A stretch of DNA of 64,000 nucleotides from Micrococcales bacterium 72-143 (GTDB lineage: Bacteria; Actinomycetota; Actinomycetes; Actinomycetales; Microbacteriaceae). Position 1 is the first letter of the stretch; each line of letters begins with the position of its first letter. Below are positions 5,197-53,021 of this stretch, piece by piece. The DNA lies in the NCBI GenBank assembly GCA_001898835.1, contig MKVM01000005.1:372001-436000 (forward strand), read 5' to 3'. The notes under the pieces are model-generated. The model did no database searches. It was not told the origin of the DNA and saw nothing but the letters and a program-made list of their open reading frames with translations. The translations under genes and the position numbers were made by a program.

Positions 5197-6120
5197 ATGA
5201 CGACCGCCTGGGGCCACGGACTCGCCACGCTCGCCGCCGACGGGACCGTGCTCGACACGTGGTTCCCCACCCCCGCGCTGGGCGGCGCGCCGGCCGACGC
5301 TGTGGCGCCCGCCGAGGTGACCGACGGCGTCGGAGCGGATACGGTGCGCGAGGTCACGACGGAGGCCGTCGTCGTCGAGATCGACACCGACGCGGCCCCC
5401 GCCTCGACCCCCGACGCATACCTCCGCCTGCATCTGCTGTCGCACCTGCTCGTGCGGCCCAACGAGATCAACCTCGACGGGATCTTCGCCCACCTGCCGA
5501 TCGTCGCCTGGACGACCGCCGGGCCGGCGCATCCGTCGGTGCTGCGCGGGGGGCGCATCCGCCTGCAGCGTGCGGGCGTCTCGGTCACCGGGGTCGACAA
5601 GTTCCCCCGGCTGCTCGACTACGTCGTGCCCGACCGGGTGCGCATCGCCGACGCGTCGCGTGTGCGGCTCGGCGCGCACCTGGCGCCCGGCACGACCGTC
5701 ATGCACGAGGGCTTCGTCAACTACAACGCGGGCACACTCGGCGCCTCCATGGTCGAGGGGCGCATCTCGCAGGGCGTCGTCGTGGGCGACGGCTCGGATG
5801 TCGGCGGCGGCGCCTCGATCATGGGCACCCTGTCGGGCGGCGGCACGCAGCGCATCGCCATCGGCGAGCGGGCGCTCCTCGGCGCGAACTCGGGCATCGG
5901 CATCTCGATCGGCGACGACTCGGTCGTGGAGGCCGGCCTCTATGTGACCGCGGGGACGAAGGTGACCTACCTGCTGCCGGCCGGGCCGCGCACCGTGAAG
6001 GCGCTCGACCTCTCCGGCGTGCCGGGCATCCTCTTCCGCCGCAACTCCCTCACCGGGGCGGTCGAGGCTCTCCCCCGCGCGGGCCACGGCGTCGAGCTCA
6101 ACACCGCCCTCCACGCCTGA
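5197..6120 (+). CDS. dapD: Tetrahydrodipicolinate N-succinyltransferase
   Basis: Transfers succinyl from succinyl-CoA to tetrahydrodipicolinate, the step that commits to the succinylase route for meso-DAP and lysine. The 307-aa protein has an N-terminal alpha/beta part and a C-terminal left-handed beta-helix with hexapeptide-like repeats (for example [34 protein letters not shown]). [21 protein letters not shown] is typical of the actinobacterial DapD group, which is longer than the E. coli enzyme. Divergent dapE and nearby dapC support the pathway assignment. Confidence 0.93.
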
Positions 6121-6189: not shown

Positions 6190-6274
6190 TCCAGAAATGC
6201 AGGAGATTCCTCGCGGCGGATGCTCCCGAGCCCGGATCCTCAACGCAGGCAGGCTGAGACTCCTGTATTTCTGA
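6190..6274. repeat. Palindromic intergenic repeat, family A, copy 1
   Basis: Inverted repeat with arms CAGAAATGCAGGAG (6192-6205) and CTCCTGTATTTCTG (6260-6273), one mismatch, enclosing about 54 bases. It sits between dapD and the DUF559 gene. There is no T-run after the hairpin. The arms match three other copies in this window. Confidence 0.8.
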
Positions 6275-6371
6275 GGCAAGTCGTCTCCTTCACAGGAAGC
6301 GGAAGGAGGCGGATCCCACGGTCACGGGAGCTCGTCCTCCGTGCGCCCCGCTCCCCCGCAAGGCTCCCGGC

Positions 6372-7232
6372 ATGGATCTGCTCGACGACATCCGTGCGCT
6401 CGGGGGCCTCGCGCCCGCCTTCCTGCTCCTGCATCGCGGCTGGAGCTACAGCGCTCTGAGCTACGCCGCGCGTCACGGACGCGTGCTCCGTGTCCGCCAG
6501 GGCTGGTACGCGCTCCCCGGCGTCGACGAGCTCCTCGCCGCGGCCTGGCGCGTCGGCGGCCTGCTGAGCTGTGCGAGCGCGGCCCGCACCTTCGGGATGT
6601 GGACGCCGCCGGACGACCGCCTCCATGTCGCCGTCCACCCGCACCACGCGCGGATGCGCGCCCACGACGACATGAGGGTGCGCCTGTCCGCGGCGCCCGA
6701 CCCCGGCATCCGCATCCACTGGCGTCGAGAGGCGGGATTCGATCGCTATCGCGCGACGCCGCTCGCGTGCCTTGTCGACCTGGCGAGCTGCTTCCGGCCC
6801 GAGTGGGTGCTGGGCTCGCTCGACAGCGCGCTTCGGCTGGGCCTCATCCGTCGCCGGGAGTTGTCTTCCCTGGCCCGCCGGCTTCCCGCCCGTGCGCGAT
6901 GGATCGTCGACGCGGCGGATGCGCGGTCCGGGTCGTTCCCCGAATCGGTGCTGCGCGGCCTGCTCGTCCTCGCGGGGATCGGATTTCGCATCCAGCCGTG
7001 GATCGAGGACATGCGCGTCGACTTCCTGATCGGCGACCGCCTGGTCATCGAGGTGGACGGGCGCGAGTTCCACGGCGACCACCTCGGATTCGAGAGCGAC
7101 CGCGCACGTGATGCACGGCTCAGCGCACTCGGCTACCGCGTGCTGAGGTTCAGCTACGCGCAGGTCGTGTACCGCCCCGACGAGGTGGCGGCCGCCATCC
7201 GTGCCGCGATCGCGCGCAACGACCACAGCTAA
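6372..7232 (+). CDS. DUF559 (Vsr-like PD-(D/E)XK) protein with AbiEi-like N-terminal domain
   Basis: Protein of 286 aa. The N-terminal part (about 1-90) looks like the winged-helix domain annotated in AbiEi-family antitoxins: it has GWSYSALSYAARHGRVLRV followed by GWYALPG. The C-terminal part (about 195-285) is DUF559, related to Vsr mismatch endonucleases. RVDFLIGDRLVIEVDGREFHG supplies the D...E-x-D core, and ALGYRVLRFSYAQVV follows. No methyltransferase or toxin partner is adjacent, so this is not a complete restriction or toxin-antitoxin pair. It is flanked by family A palindromes (one upstream, two downstream). Nuclease activity is inferred from the fold signature only. Confidence 0.75.
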   Translation: MDLLDDIRALGGLAPAFLLLHRGWSYSALSYAARHGRVLRVRQGWYALPGVDELLAAAWRVGGLLSCASAARTFGMWTPPDDRLHVAVHPHHARMRAHDDMRVRLSAAPDPGIRIHWRREAGFDRYRATPLACLVDLASCFRPEWVLGSLDSALRLGLIRRRELSSLARRLPARARWIVDAADARSGSFPESVLRGLLVLAGIGFRIQPWIEDMRVDFLIGDRLVIEVDGREFHGDHLGFESDRARDARLSALGYRVLRFSYAQVVYRPDEVAAAIRAAIARNDHS

Positions 7233-7269
7233 TCGAGTCCGCGCCGCTCGAGACCCCGCCTCCCGAACC

Positions 7270-7353
7270 CCAGAAATGCAGGAGAAACCGTCCCCCCGTG
7301 CGCGGGGATGCCGCGGGTGCTGCGGGTCGTCGCCGACCCTCCTGCATTTCTGG
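7270..7353. repeat. Palindromic intergenic repeat, family A, copy 2
   Basis: Perfect 15-bp arms CCAGAAATGCAGGAG (7270-7284) and CTCCTGCATTTCTGG (7339-7353) around a 54-base loop. The loop contains its own small hairpin (CCCCG/CGGGG). It lies 37 bases after the DUF559 gene. Confidence 0.85.
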
Positions 7354-7410
7354 AGAAGGACTCGGCCGCACGTACGGATGCCGAGCTGGCTCGAACGCCG
7401 ACTCCTAGGT

Positions 7411-7492
7411 CCAGAAATGCAGGAGAAAGCCGGGGTTCAGGCGCAGAAGGCGCGCGGATCCGGAGATGCTGCCGCGGGCCTCCTGCATTTCT
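7411..7492. repeat. Palindromic intergenic repeat, family A, copy 3
   Basis: Left arm CCAGAAATGCAGGAG (7411-7425) and right arm CTCCTGCATTTCT (7480-7492) enclose 54 bases. It is the second copy in tandem after the DUF559 gene, with a loop sequence unlike copy 2. No gene was found in 7233-7608. Confidence 0.85.
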
Positions 7493-7537
7493 CGCGAAAG
7501 GCTCGCGGAGGGACGGAGTGCGGGAGCGGGCGACGGG

Positions 7538-7608: not shown

Positions 7609-8904
<1,296 letters not shown>

Positions 8905-52818: not shown

Positions 52819-52872
52819 CTCGCAGACATTTCGTTAACATTTTCGGGATGTGATGGCTTGTTCACGCGGGTC

Positions 52873-52952
52873 GAAAATGCAGGAGATCCTCCGCATCCGG
52901 TCGGTGTTCCGGGCGTCCGGCGGCGACCCGCACCGGAATCTCCTGCATTTCT
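52873..52952. repeat. Palindromic intergenic repeat, family A, copy 4
   Basis: AAATGCAGGAGAT (52875-52887) pairs with ATCTCCTGCATTT (52938-52950) around 50 bases. The outer bases GAA/TTC-like are partly conserved. It lies between divergent mmsA and rmuC, about 45 kb from the other three copies. Confidence 0.8.
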
Positions 52953-53021
52953 GAAGTGGCGGGAGCGGACGATACGGCCGGTCGCCGCGCGGATGTCGGC
53001 GGCCGCTGCGACACTGACCGC

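Follow-up and report, generated by a model that had tools for sequence, protein, structure and literature searches.

A DUF559 nuclease gene and its palindromic two-arm elements in Microbacteriaceae: a candidate counterpart of REPIN/RAYT systems

Among described systems in which dispersed bacterial repeats are tied to a chromosomal enzyme, REPIN/RAYT (also termed REPtron) is the closest to the locus considered here; in the available text of the papers concerned, its repeats are associated with HUH transposases (Bertels and Rainey 2011, PMC3116915; Corneloup 2021, PMC8266576; Nunvar 2010, PMC2817692). Two further points of comparison are nucleases, for which the accessible portions of the sources report that the EDxHD homing endonuclease I-Bth0305I dimerises on a target of nearly 60 bp (PMC3943268) and that the MTES_1575 restriction endonuclease of Microbacterium testaceum carries a Vsr-type domain fused to HEPN (PMC3710099). 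The subject of this work is a DUF559 gene lying between palindromic elements in a stretch of 64,000 nucleotides from Micrococcales bacterium 72-143, a member of the Microbacteriaceae (contig MKVM01000005.1, positions 372,001 to 436,000); this stretch is referred to as the window. Gene and elements probably constitute a two-part system with a REPIN/RAYT-like organisation but an unrelated EDxHD/Vsr-type nuclease, persisting through cutting and repair, a reading to which we assign a probability of roughly 0.6. Its first part would be a chromosomal gene whose DUF559 product joins an AbiEi-like winged helix to a nuclease of the EDxHD/Vsr type. Its second part would be the cognate two-arm sites, with inverted 14-bp arms 54 (±1) bp apart, on both sides of the gene and at about 40 dispersed positions.

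Palindromic elements at the DUF559 gene and across the genome

The gene, its domains and the elements of the window are the following (wHTH, winged helix-turn-helix):

6192-6273: palindromic element 1 (54-bp loop; arms at 6192-6205 and 6260-6273), separating dapD from the DUF559 gene, whose start codon follows after 98 bp
6372-7232, plus strand: DUF559 gene, 286 amino acids, AbiEi-like wHTH and Vsr/I-Bth0305I-like nuclease
6372-6551, plus strand: N-terminal wHTH region, residues 1-60, whose similarity tracks arm similarity best
6927-7229, plus strand: nuclease domain, residues 186-286
7271-7352: palindromic element 2 (arms 7271-7284 and 7339-7352), 38 bp past the DUF559 stop codon
7412-7493: palindromic element 3 (arms 7412-7425 and 7480-7493), between element 2 and the 3′ end of gltA
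52872-52953: dispersed element 4 (arms CGAAAATGCAGGAG and CAGAAATGCAGGAG, spacing 68)

The initial annotation had described three inverted repeats around the gene, with near-identical arms of 13-15 bases and loops of 53-54. All three are real, at the refined borders given above, and the arms are indeed nearly identical (single-base deviations occur at 6266 and 7493); the exact lengths are 14 bp for the arms and 54 bp for the loop in every one of them, with exactly 68 bp from arm start to arm start. Element 4, missed in that annotation, lies upstream of a minus-strand methylmalonate-semialdehyde dehydrogenase gene, 42 bp from its likely start codon (first base 52829), and has a counterpart at the same place in G001, G002, and G003. 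Here and below, G000 is the window genome (3.33 Mb in 6 contigs, with the window on contig C5), other G numbers denote related genomes, and L numbers denote fetched loci.

At up to three mismatches, the window contains 10 arm sites, as compared with a mean of 1.95 (largest 7) in shuffled sequence, and none of 100 shuffles reaches 10. Genome-wide, the arm occurs at 104 sites when up to two mismatches are allowed, while the reversed pattern yields 13; exact core pairs number 35, and control pairs 0. These shuffles and reversed-pattern controls rule out chance or base composition as the source of the repeats. The loci fetched from G000 hold at least 46 arm pairs, spaced at 68 bp in 37 cases, 69 bp in 7, and 67 bp in 2 (measured start to start), an arrangement that resembles the inverted doublets at fixed distance of REPIN/RAYT. 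The 14-bp arms are, in contrast, not themselves REP hairpins, which bear a GTAG-type tag. Exact core pairs occur in 8 of 9 genomes of the genus and in 23 of 398 genomes of the family; the named carriers among the matches listed are Microbacteriaceae or unassigned actinobacterial bins.

A comparison of the three DUF559-flanking elements between four genomes revealed identity at 483 of 504 arm positions (95.8%), whereas the loops agree at 371 of 972 positions (38.2%) and the outer 30 bp at 194 of 540 (35.9%). Unrelated loops within G000 have a mean identity of 35.7%. Constant arms and variable loops, as proposed at the outset, are thus confirmed, and the loops can be called unrelated with regard to their between-species identity but not altogether: since each element is readable in either direction, the loops were oriented, upon which those of G000 (37), G001 (27), and G003 (22) display a weak CCCG-N6-CGGG motif at a constant position some 5 bp away from the dyad. 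The information content of these oriented loops amounts to 8.1, 21.0, and 12.9 bits, respectively, versus 4.4, 5.4, and 7.5 bits after shuffling (15 shuffles per genome). The 10 loops of G266/G303 exhibit a different inner pattern (26.3 versus 13.5 bits).

Matching arms, gene clades and the winged helix

Flanking was assessed with no arm sequence presumed, by searching for an inverted pair with 11-nt arms and a 50-66-nt loop on each side of the gene within 350 bp and scoring the total mismatches among the arms (threshold ≤4). The sample comprised 70 of the best 73 DUF559 matches across 396 genomes of the family, 266 of which have a match at E ≤ 1e-20. A matching arm pair is present on both sides at 49 of the 70 loci (46 at three mismatches or fewer), as opposed to 0 of 210 shuffled flanks and 3 of 179 control genes of G000 loci, all three exactly at 4. 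When upstream and downstream pairs of different loci are combined, 64 of 210 pass—a weak control, because many loci have the AAATGCAGG arm in common. The upstream element of the 49 flanked loci ends 62-149 bp before the (aligned) start, and the start of the downstream element ranges from 10 bp ahead of the stop to 171 bp beyond it. Loop lengths of the two sides agree exactly at 42 of these loci and to within 1 at 47. For other families of the order, 20 loci were picked before their flanks were viewed, loops of 45-75 nt were allowed, and the flanks alone, not dispersal, were examined; 11 loci pass (8 at three mismatches or fewer; five families), compared with 0 of 60 shuffles. REPIN/RAYT enzyme genes are likewise flanked by the repeat with which they are associated.

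The suggested association with DUF559 therefore stands against shuffles and control genes, albeit not for the family as a whole. Among more distant DUF559/MTES_1575 genes with a match to the clade, only 4 of 21 loci are flanked (the set includes the truncated region L283 and the broken gene L313), and 11 further loci are without a match; DUF559 in general is thereby ruled out as the partner of the repeats. Within the genus, PF04480 counts do not follow element counts, as exemplified by G006 (11 elements, 0 PF04480) and G007 (0 and 2), and 43 of the 46 elements of G000 have no DUF559/MTES_1575 match of that genome within 10 kb. The link is real for one DUF559 clade group and does not hold for DUF559 at large.

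Within this group, the arm type follows the gene clade. The flanked loci carry the clade-specific arms AAATGCAGGA, AAATGAAGGA, AAATCAAGGA, GTTGTGCAGGA, CACGGATCCGG, CGCGGATGAGG, ACCGTCTCAAG, and others; TTGTGCAGGA likewise designates a DUF559 clade. The arm TTRTGCAGGA, derived from the flanks of one clade (L186, L187, L189, L191, and L200-L202), was used to look for pairs in a chosen set of 29 genomes. All 7 that have the clade carry such pairs, and none of the remaining 22 does; these comprise 14 in which other elements (such as those of AAATGCAGGA type) or DUF559 clades are present and 8 selected for having no DUF559 match. The reversed control gave 0. Flanks included, the pairs number 7 in G001, 2 in G007, 8 in G008, 7 in G303, 14 in G266, 1 in G367, and 5 in G082, and copies beyond the flanks exist in six of these seven genomes, the sole G367 copy being its flank. 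Two DUF559 clades coexist with two arm families in G001 (40 AAATNNAGGA pairs and 7 TTRTGCAGGA pairs). Pairs of AAATNNAGGA occur in 26 of 61 chosen genomes and in 0 of 19 non-genus genomes chosen for having no DUF559 match, a survey that is supportive only, because the genome set was picked with the flanks in view.

Arm and protein similarity are correlated across the 49 flanked loci, most strongly for the wHTH (Spearman 0.50), followed by the nuclease (0.40) and the middle (0.31), each value being reached by 0 of 300 permutations; for pairs below 50% identity, the coefficients are 0.45, 0.34, and 0.23. Shared ancestry adds to all of these correlations. It is well supported by these comparisons that the wHTH of the DUF559 protein would be the reader of the arms, and this co-variation recalls the co-evolution of motif and enzyme described in the consulted parts of the REPIN/RAYT papers.

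The Vsr-like nuclease that the initial annotation placed next to the repeats is upheld by Pfam (DUF559, PF04480, 1.8e-11) and by the predicted fold. AbiEi_4 matches at 1.1e-4 over residues 21-49, just under the cut-off, and PADLOC reports AbiEi (2.6e-8, residues 23-174) and a homing endonuclease (8.3e-5, residues 203-260). The nuclease residues E191, Q208, D217, E227, and D243 do not vary among the 70 homologues, H234 is present in 69, and D229 in 68. An AlphaFold model built from four sequences has a mean pLDDT (predicted local distance difference test) of 63.8, with 82-93 from residue 191 on but 51 at residues 231-240. Its best solved match in Foldseek is the catalytic domain of I-Bth0305I (3r3p, E 4.4e-5, template modelling score 0.77-0.82 over the target); the next are NGO0050 and Vsr (1cw0, E 8e-3), the latter suggesting that the fold is shared with the mismatch endonuclease. 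The protein is nonetheless not Vsr itself, as the Vsr profile TIGR00632 matches weakly (0.021), with 15.1 bits versus the NCBI cut-off of 97.85.

Several distinctions from known systems arise from this architecture. REPIN/RAYT employs a Y1 HUH (IS200/IS605-like) transposase instead of a wHTH joined to an EDxHD/Vsr-fold nuclease; Pfam finds no Y1 transposase in the flanked gene, while the genome was not searched for RAYTs or other transposases. The modelled Vsr-like catalytic fold, with its conserved acidic residues and histidine, is shared with EDxHD homing endonucleases, and by analogy the element geometry and internal motif would agree with a long dimeric target. However, the DNA-binding part is AbiEi-like here, and the gene lies between intact sites, interrupting none, while dozens of sites remain in its own genome. 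An N-terminal winged helix is also found in the AbiEi antitoxins, the regulators of type IV toxin-antitoxin systems, but here it is fused to a nuclease, and no AbiEii nucleotidyltransferase toxin is adjacent (the neighbours being dapD and gltA).

Cutting, repair and competing explanations

Support for a two-part system comes from the flanking, the clade-specific arms, the dispersal, the arm conservation, the wHTH co-variation, and the invariant active site. From these observations, we infer arm binding by the DUF559 protein, dimeric binding, cutting in mid-loop, and spread by repair. Most likely, by analogy with I-Bth0305I, the protein would bind as a dimer with one winged helix per arm. Such a dimer would set the fixed spacing and put both nuclease domains over the middle, where they would sit at the weak pseudopalindrome (CCCG-N6-CGGG in this genus). 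Occasional cutting or nicking at this place, followed by repair from another copy, could then spread and homogenise the arms. The REP/RAYT analogy drawn in the initial annotation is apt as to organisation; cutting or movement of the elements by the nuclease would be its conjectural part.

A number of observations weigh against this mechanism. Since 46 uncontrolled cut sites would presumably be lethal, nuclease activity must be restrained, and 21 of the 70 close homologues are unflanked by the test applied. Exact pairs are present without a match to the window protein at E ≤ 0.001 in G006 (11) and G279 (14). The former genome is nearly complete and has two distant MTES_1575-type profile matches, of which the one examined (L276) is unflanked. 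Sites may be kept for another reason in such genomes. No clear target-site duplication emerged in G045, where 4-bp direct repeats, none of them longer, stand beside 8 of 24 elements versus 4.1 after shuffling and where the outer arm bases are themselves conserved. Exact insertion borders were not obtained, the presence/absence pairs L033/L081 and L027/L140 being too diverged; the alignment of L037 with L117 covered another element and was left out of account. In the 24 elements of G045, private changes shared by any pair reach a maximum of 8, versus a null mean of 6.5 and a null maximum of 10, so recent copying is unsupported. Finally, arms in tlyA come or go without insertion, which is not what simple transposition gives.

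Gene-less carriers also fit gene loss with slow decay of the sites. In G006, the gap between dapD and gltA measures about 48 bp and has neither gene nor arms; hence, G006 lacks the unit. In G279, a draft of 80 contigs, gltA was not found either. In G240, the DUF559 homologue exists in pieces only (C2:825063-825772, L313), with two elements still present, and G049 has a weak match to the window protein.

The elements of G045 (26) have one asymmetric consensus, and their arm subtype is tied to total length (GCAGG, 75 bp, 14 elements; GAAGG, 76 bp, 11 elements; one other). Recent mobile copies, first suggested by the shared loop consensus, were dropped as an explanation, the private changes being at chance level; the consensus looks like a long recognition consensus or like old copies.

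In tlyA, the arm pair lies in frame in G000, G001, G002, G003, G004 (one mismatch), and G006, and it is lacking in G005, G007, and G008 (in the last, the arms are half-matching). All 29 tlyA loci compared align gap-free across arms and loop, and it follows that arms were gained or lost by substitution, with no insertion. The loop encodes TlyA residues common to armless relatives, from which the arms differ by substitutions around this coding loop, amino-acid changes included. Left and right arms agree in five of six genomes (TGTCGA-type in G001, G002, and G004; CCAGA-type in G003 and G006), G000 being mixed, and the arm type is not always the commoner one of its genome (G002). In this respect, the locus departs from REPIN/RAYT: the tlyA arms vary without insertion, and neither excision nor insertion was seen in the loci compared. 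Elements also occupy coding sequence in two other genes, one smc-like and one for a membrane protein, both named by inspection of translations; the product of the latter has no NCBIfam match. The gene caller assigned 5 of the 46 elements to coding sequence, of which the one at 52872 is actually upstream of the likely start and L036:3029 merely overlaps a gene end. The coding elements L017:3188, L021:3002, and L023:13169 (tlyA, smc-like, membrane protein) are read in one common frame, EMQE ... SPAF or PAF.

These cases lend themselves to a bolder, tentative version of the mechanism, namely a new kind of nuclease-site system in which an EDxHD-type endonuclease with an AbiEi winged helix keeps, homogenises, and possibly even writes its own two-arm sites in place, with a flanking signature in at least six families of the order. 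Host sequence, that of tlyA included, would then have been changed on either side of an otherwise intact 54-55-bp stretch, with no copied element inserted.

Substitution-only differences between tlyA arms and armless relatives are compatible with dispersed binding sites of a chromosomal DNA-binding protein, be it a regulator or a chromosome-organising factor; the DUF559 protein would bind such sites but move nothing, and they would arise and persist in place by the usefulness of binding. The sites parS, matS, and those of SlmA are examples of dispersed chromosomal binding sites. In line with this explanation, the main rival but one that we consider unlikely, 30 of the 46 elements of G000 have a syntenic partner, within a tolerance of 120 bp, in one or more of the other genomes from which loci were fetched (a partial sample), the 24 G045 loops show no sign of recent copies, and the best pairwise identity among 37 G000 loops is 0.61 (one orientation compared). 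Furthermore, the gene is nearly absent from plasmids, where 2 of 72,556 records match at 1e-8 (NZ_LR134454 and NZ_LR134468, Tsukamurella), and from phages, where 1 of 50,697 matches at 1e-5 (MT839994). Mere binding sites accord less well with the invariance of the catalytic residues in 70 homologues, the patchy occurrence of the window arm in the family, and the bracketing of the gene on its downstream side as well. The elements also prefer convergent 3′ ends: 19 of 46 are in convergent gaps, versus 57 of 267 for all gaps in the same loci, a preference that fits operators poorly, and operators were rejected with only 6 of 46 elements in divergent gaps. Moreover, adjacent copies that are near-identical, loops included, exist in G114 (C29:43023/43222 and C33:23054/23259), G037 (C3:73892/74014), and G001 (1879079/1879230), showing that local duplication does occur.

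Inverted arms at a fixed distance in dispersed, mostly intergenic positions, together with the 4-bp direct repeats of G045, would also suit MITE-like miniature transposons, moved by another transposase with the DUF559 gene as passenger or frequent neighbour. This is very improbable given that the arm sequence follows the DUF559 clade and its wHTH, that the same arm stands on both sides of the gene, and that the G000 loops, unlike those of a MITE family, are not common to the copies. An RNA or single-stranded DNA hairpin—a terminator, a processing site, or a REP-type substrate—that needs pairing of the arms is as improbable, although the arms can pair and runs of five or more further pairs outside them occur in 37 of 213 elements, versus 11.4 after shuffling (maximum 22), an excess that arises partly because some clades have longer arms. 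Long outer palindromes are present in 3 of the 213 elements (L165:4771 in G005, 20 bp; L036:3032, 22 bp; L032:13464, 12 bp); in the G005 element, the left flank resembles an inverted copy of the right flank. The 46 elements of G000 exhibit no covariation in their loops and weak signals outside (largest z 2.6, at one position), and a co-varying extended stem, the first impression from few elements, was not borne out across G000. In addition, a spacing fixed to ±1 is needless for a hairpin loop, the arm sequence itself is conserved, and Rfam yields no match at the locus that reaches its gathering score, the best (E 0.47) falling within the gene. The AbiEi relatives are autoregulators of the antitoxin type, and sequestration, whereby host sites would accumulate by titrating a harmful nuclease or holding it bound and inactive, would suit the PADLOC AbiEi match and the persistence of sites in coding sequence but leaves the fixed internal motif and the convergent-gap preference unexplained and is hardly credible.

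If cutting and repair by the DUF559 protein sustain the elements, a REPIN/RAYT-like organisation around an unrelated enzyme would suggest that such a lifestyle evolved more than once, and some unexplained DUF559 proteins would gain a role. A literature search, which covered no preprints and few subscription papers, found no paper linking DUF559 or Vsr-like proteins to palindromic or inverted repeats. Arm and protein vary by clade, so that their pairing gives ready-made tests of specificity, and the tlyA site offers a testable case of a dispersed repeat arising in a coding gene without being inserted.

Gene neighbourhood and minor observations

The genes on either side of the unit are the following, and the order at the locus is dapE, dapD, DUF559, gltA, dapC:

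5197-6120, plus strand: dapD (TIGR03535, 9.5e-141), left neighbour
7609-8904, minus strand: gltA, citrate synthase (NF004126, 6.2e-202), right neighbour

The DUF559 gene adjoins gltA in G000-G005, and all but G005, whose contig ends at this point, have dapD on the opposite flank; the best homologues in G007 and G008 are located elsewhere. Loci of other genera also match the dapD-DUF559-gltA neighbourhood. The gene is chromosomal and vertically inherited, as REPIN/RAYT enzymes are expected to be. The gltA-adjoining unit has three elements in G000, G002, G003, and G005; that of G001 and G004 has two, which bear a variant arm (CGAAAATGCAGGAG and close variants of it). A phage origin of the elements was rejected, with 0 viral contigs carrying the arm pair.

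In G001, the 31 exact-core elements of contig C1 are unevenly placed, with 0 between 2,161,414 and 2,998,478. Over about 20 bp outside the arms, the elements of G000 and G045 have flanks rich in C to the left and in G to the right. Nested arrays at L039:3060-3270 (G000:C5:351659-351868) and L042:3013-3170 are built of three (or two) arms to either side of a single centre, mostly in steps of 32-33 bp, as though several protein units could align.
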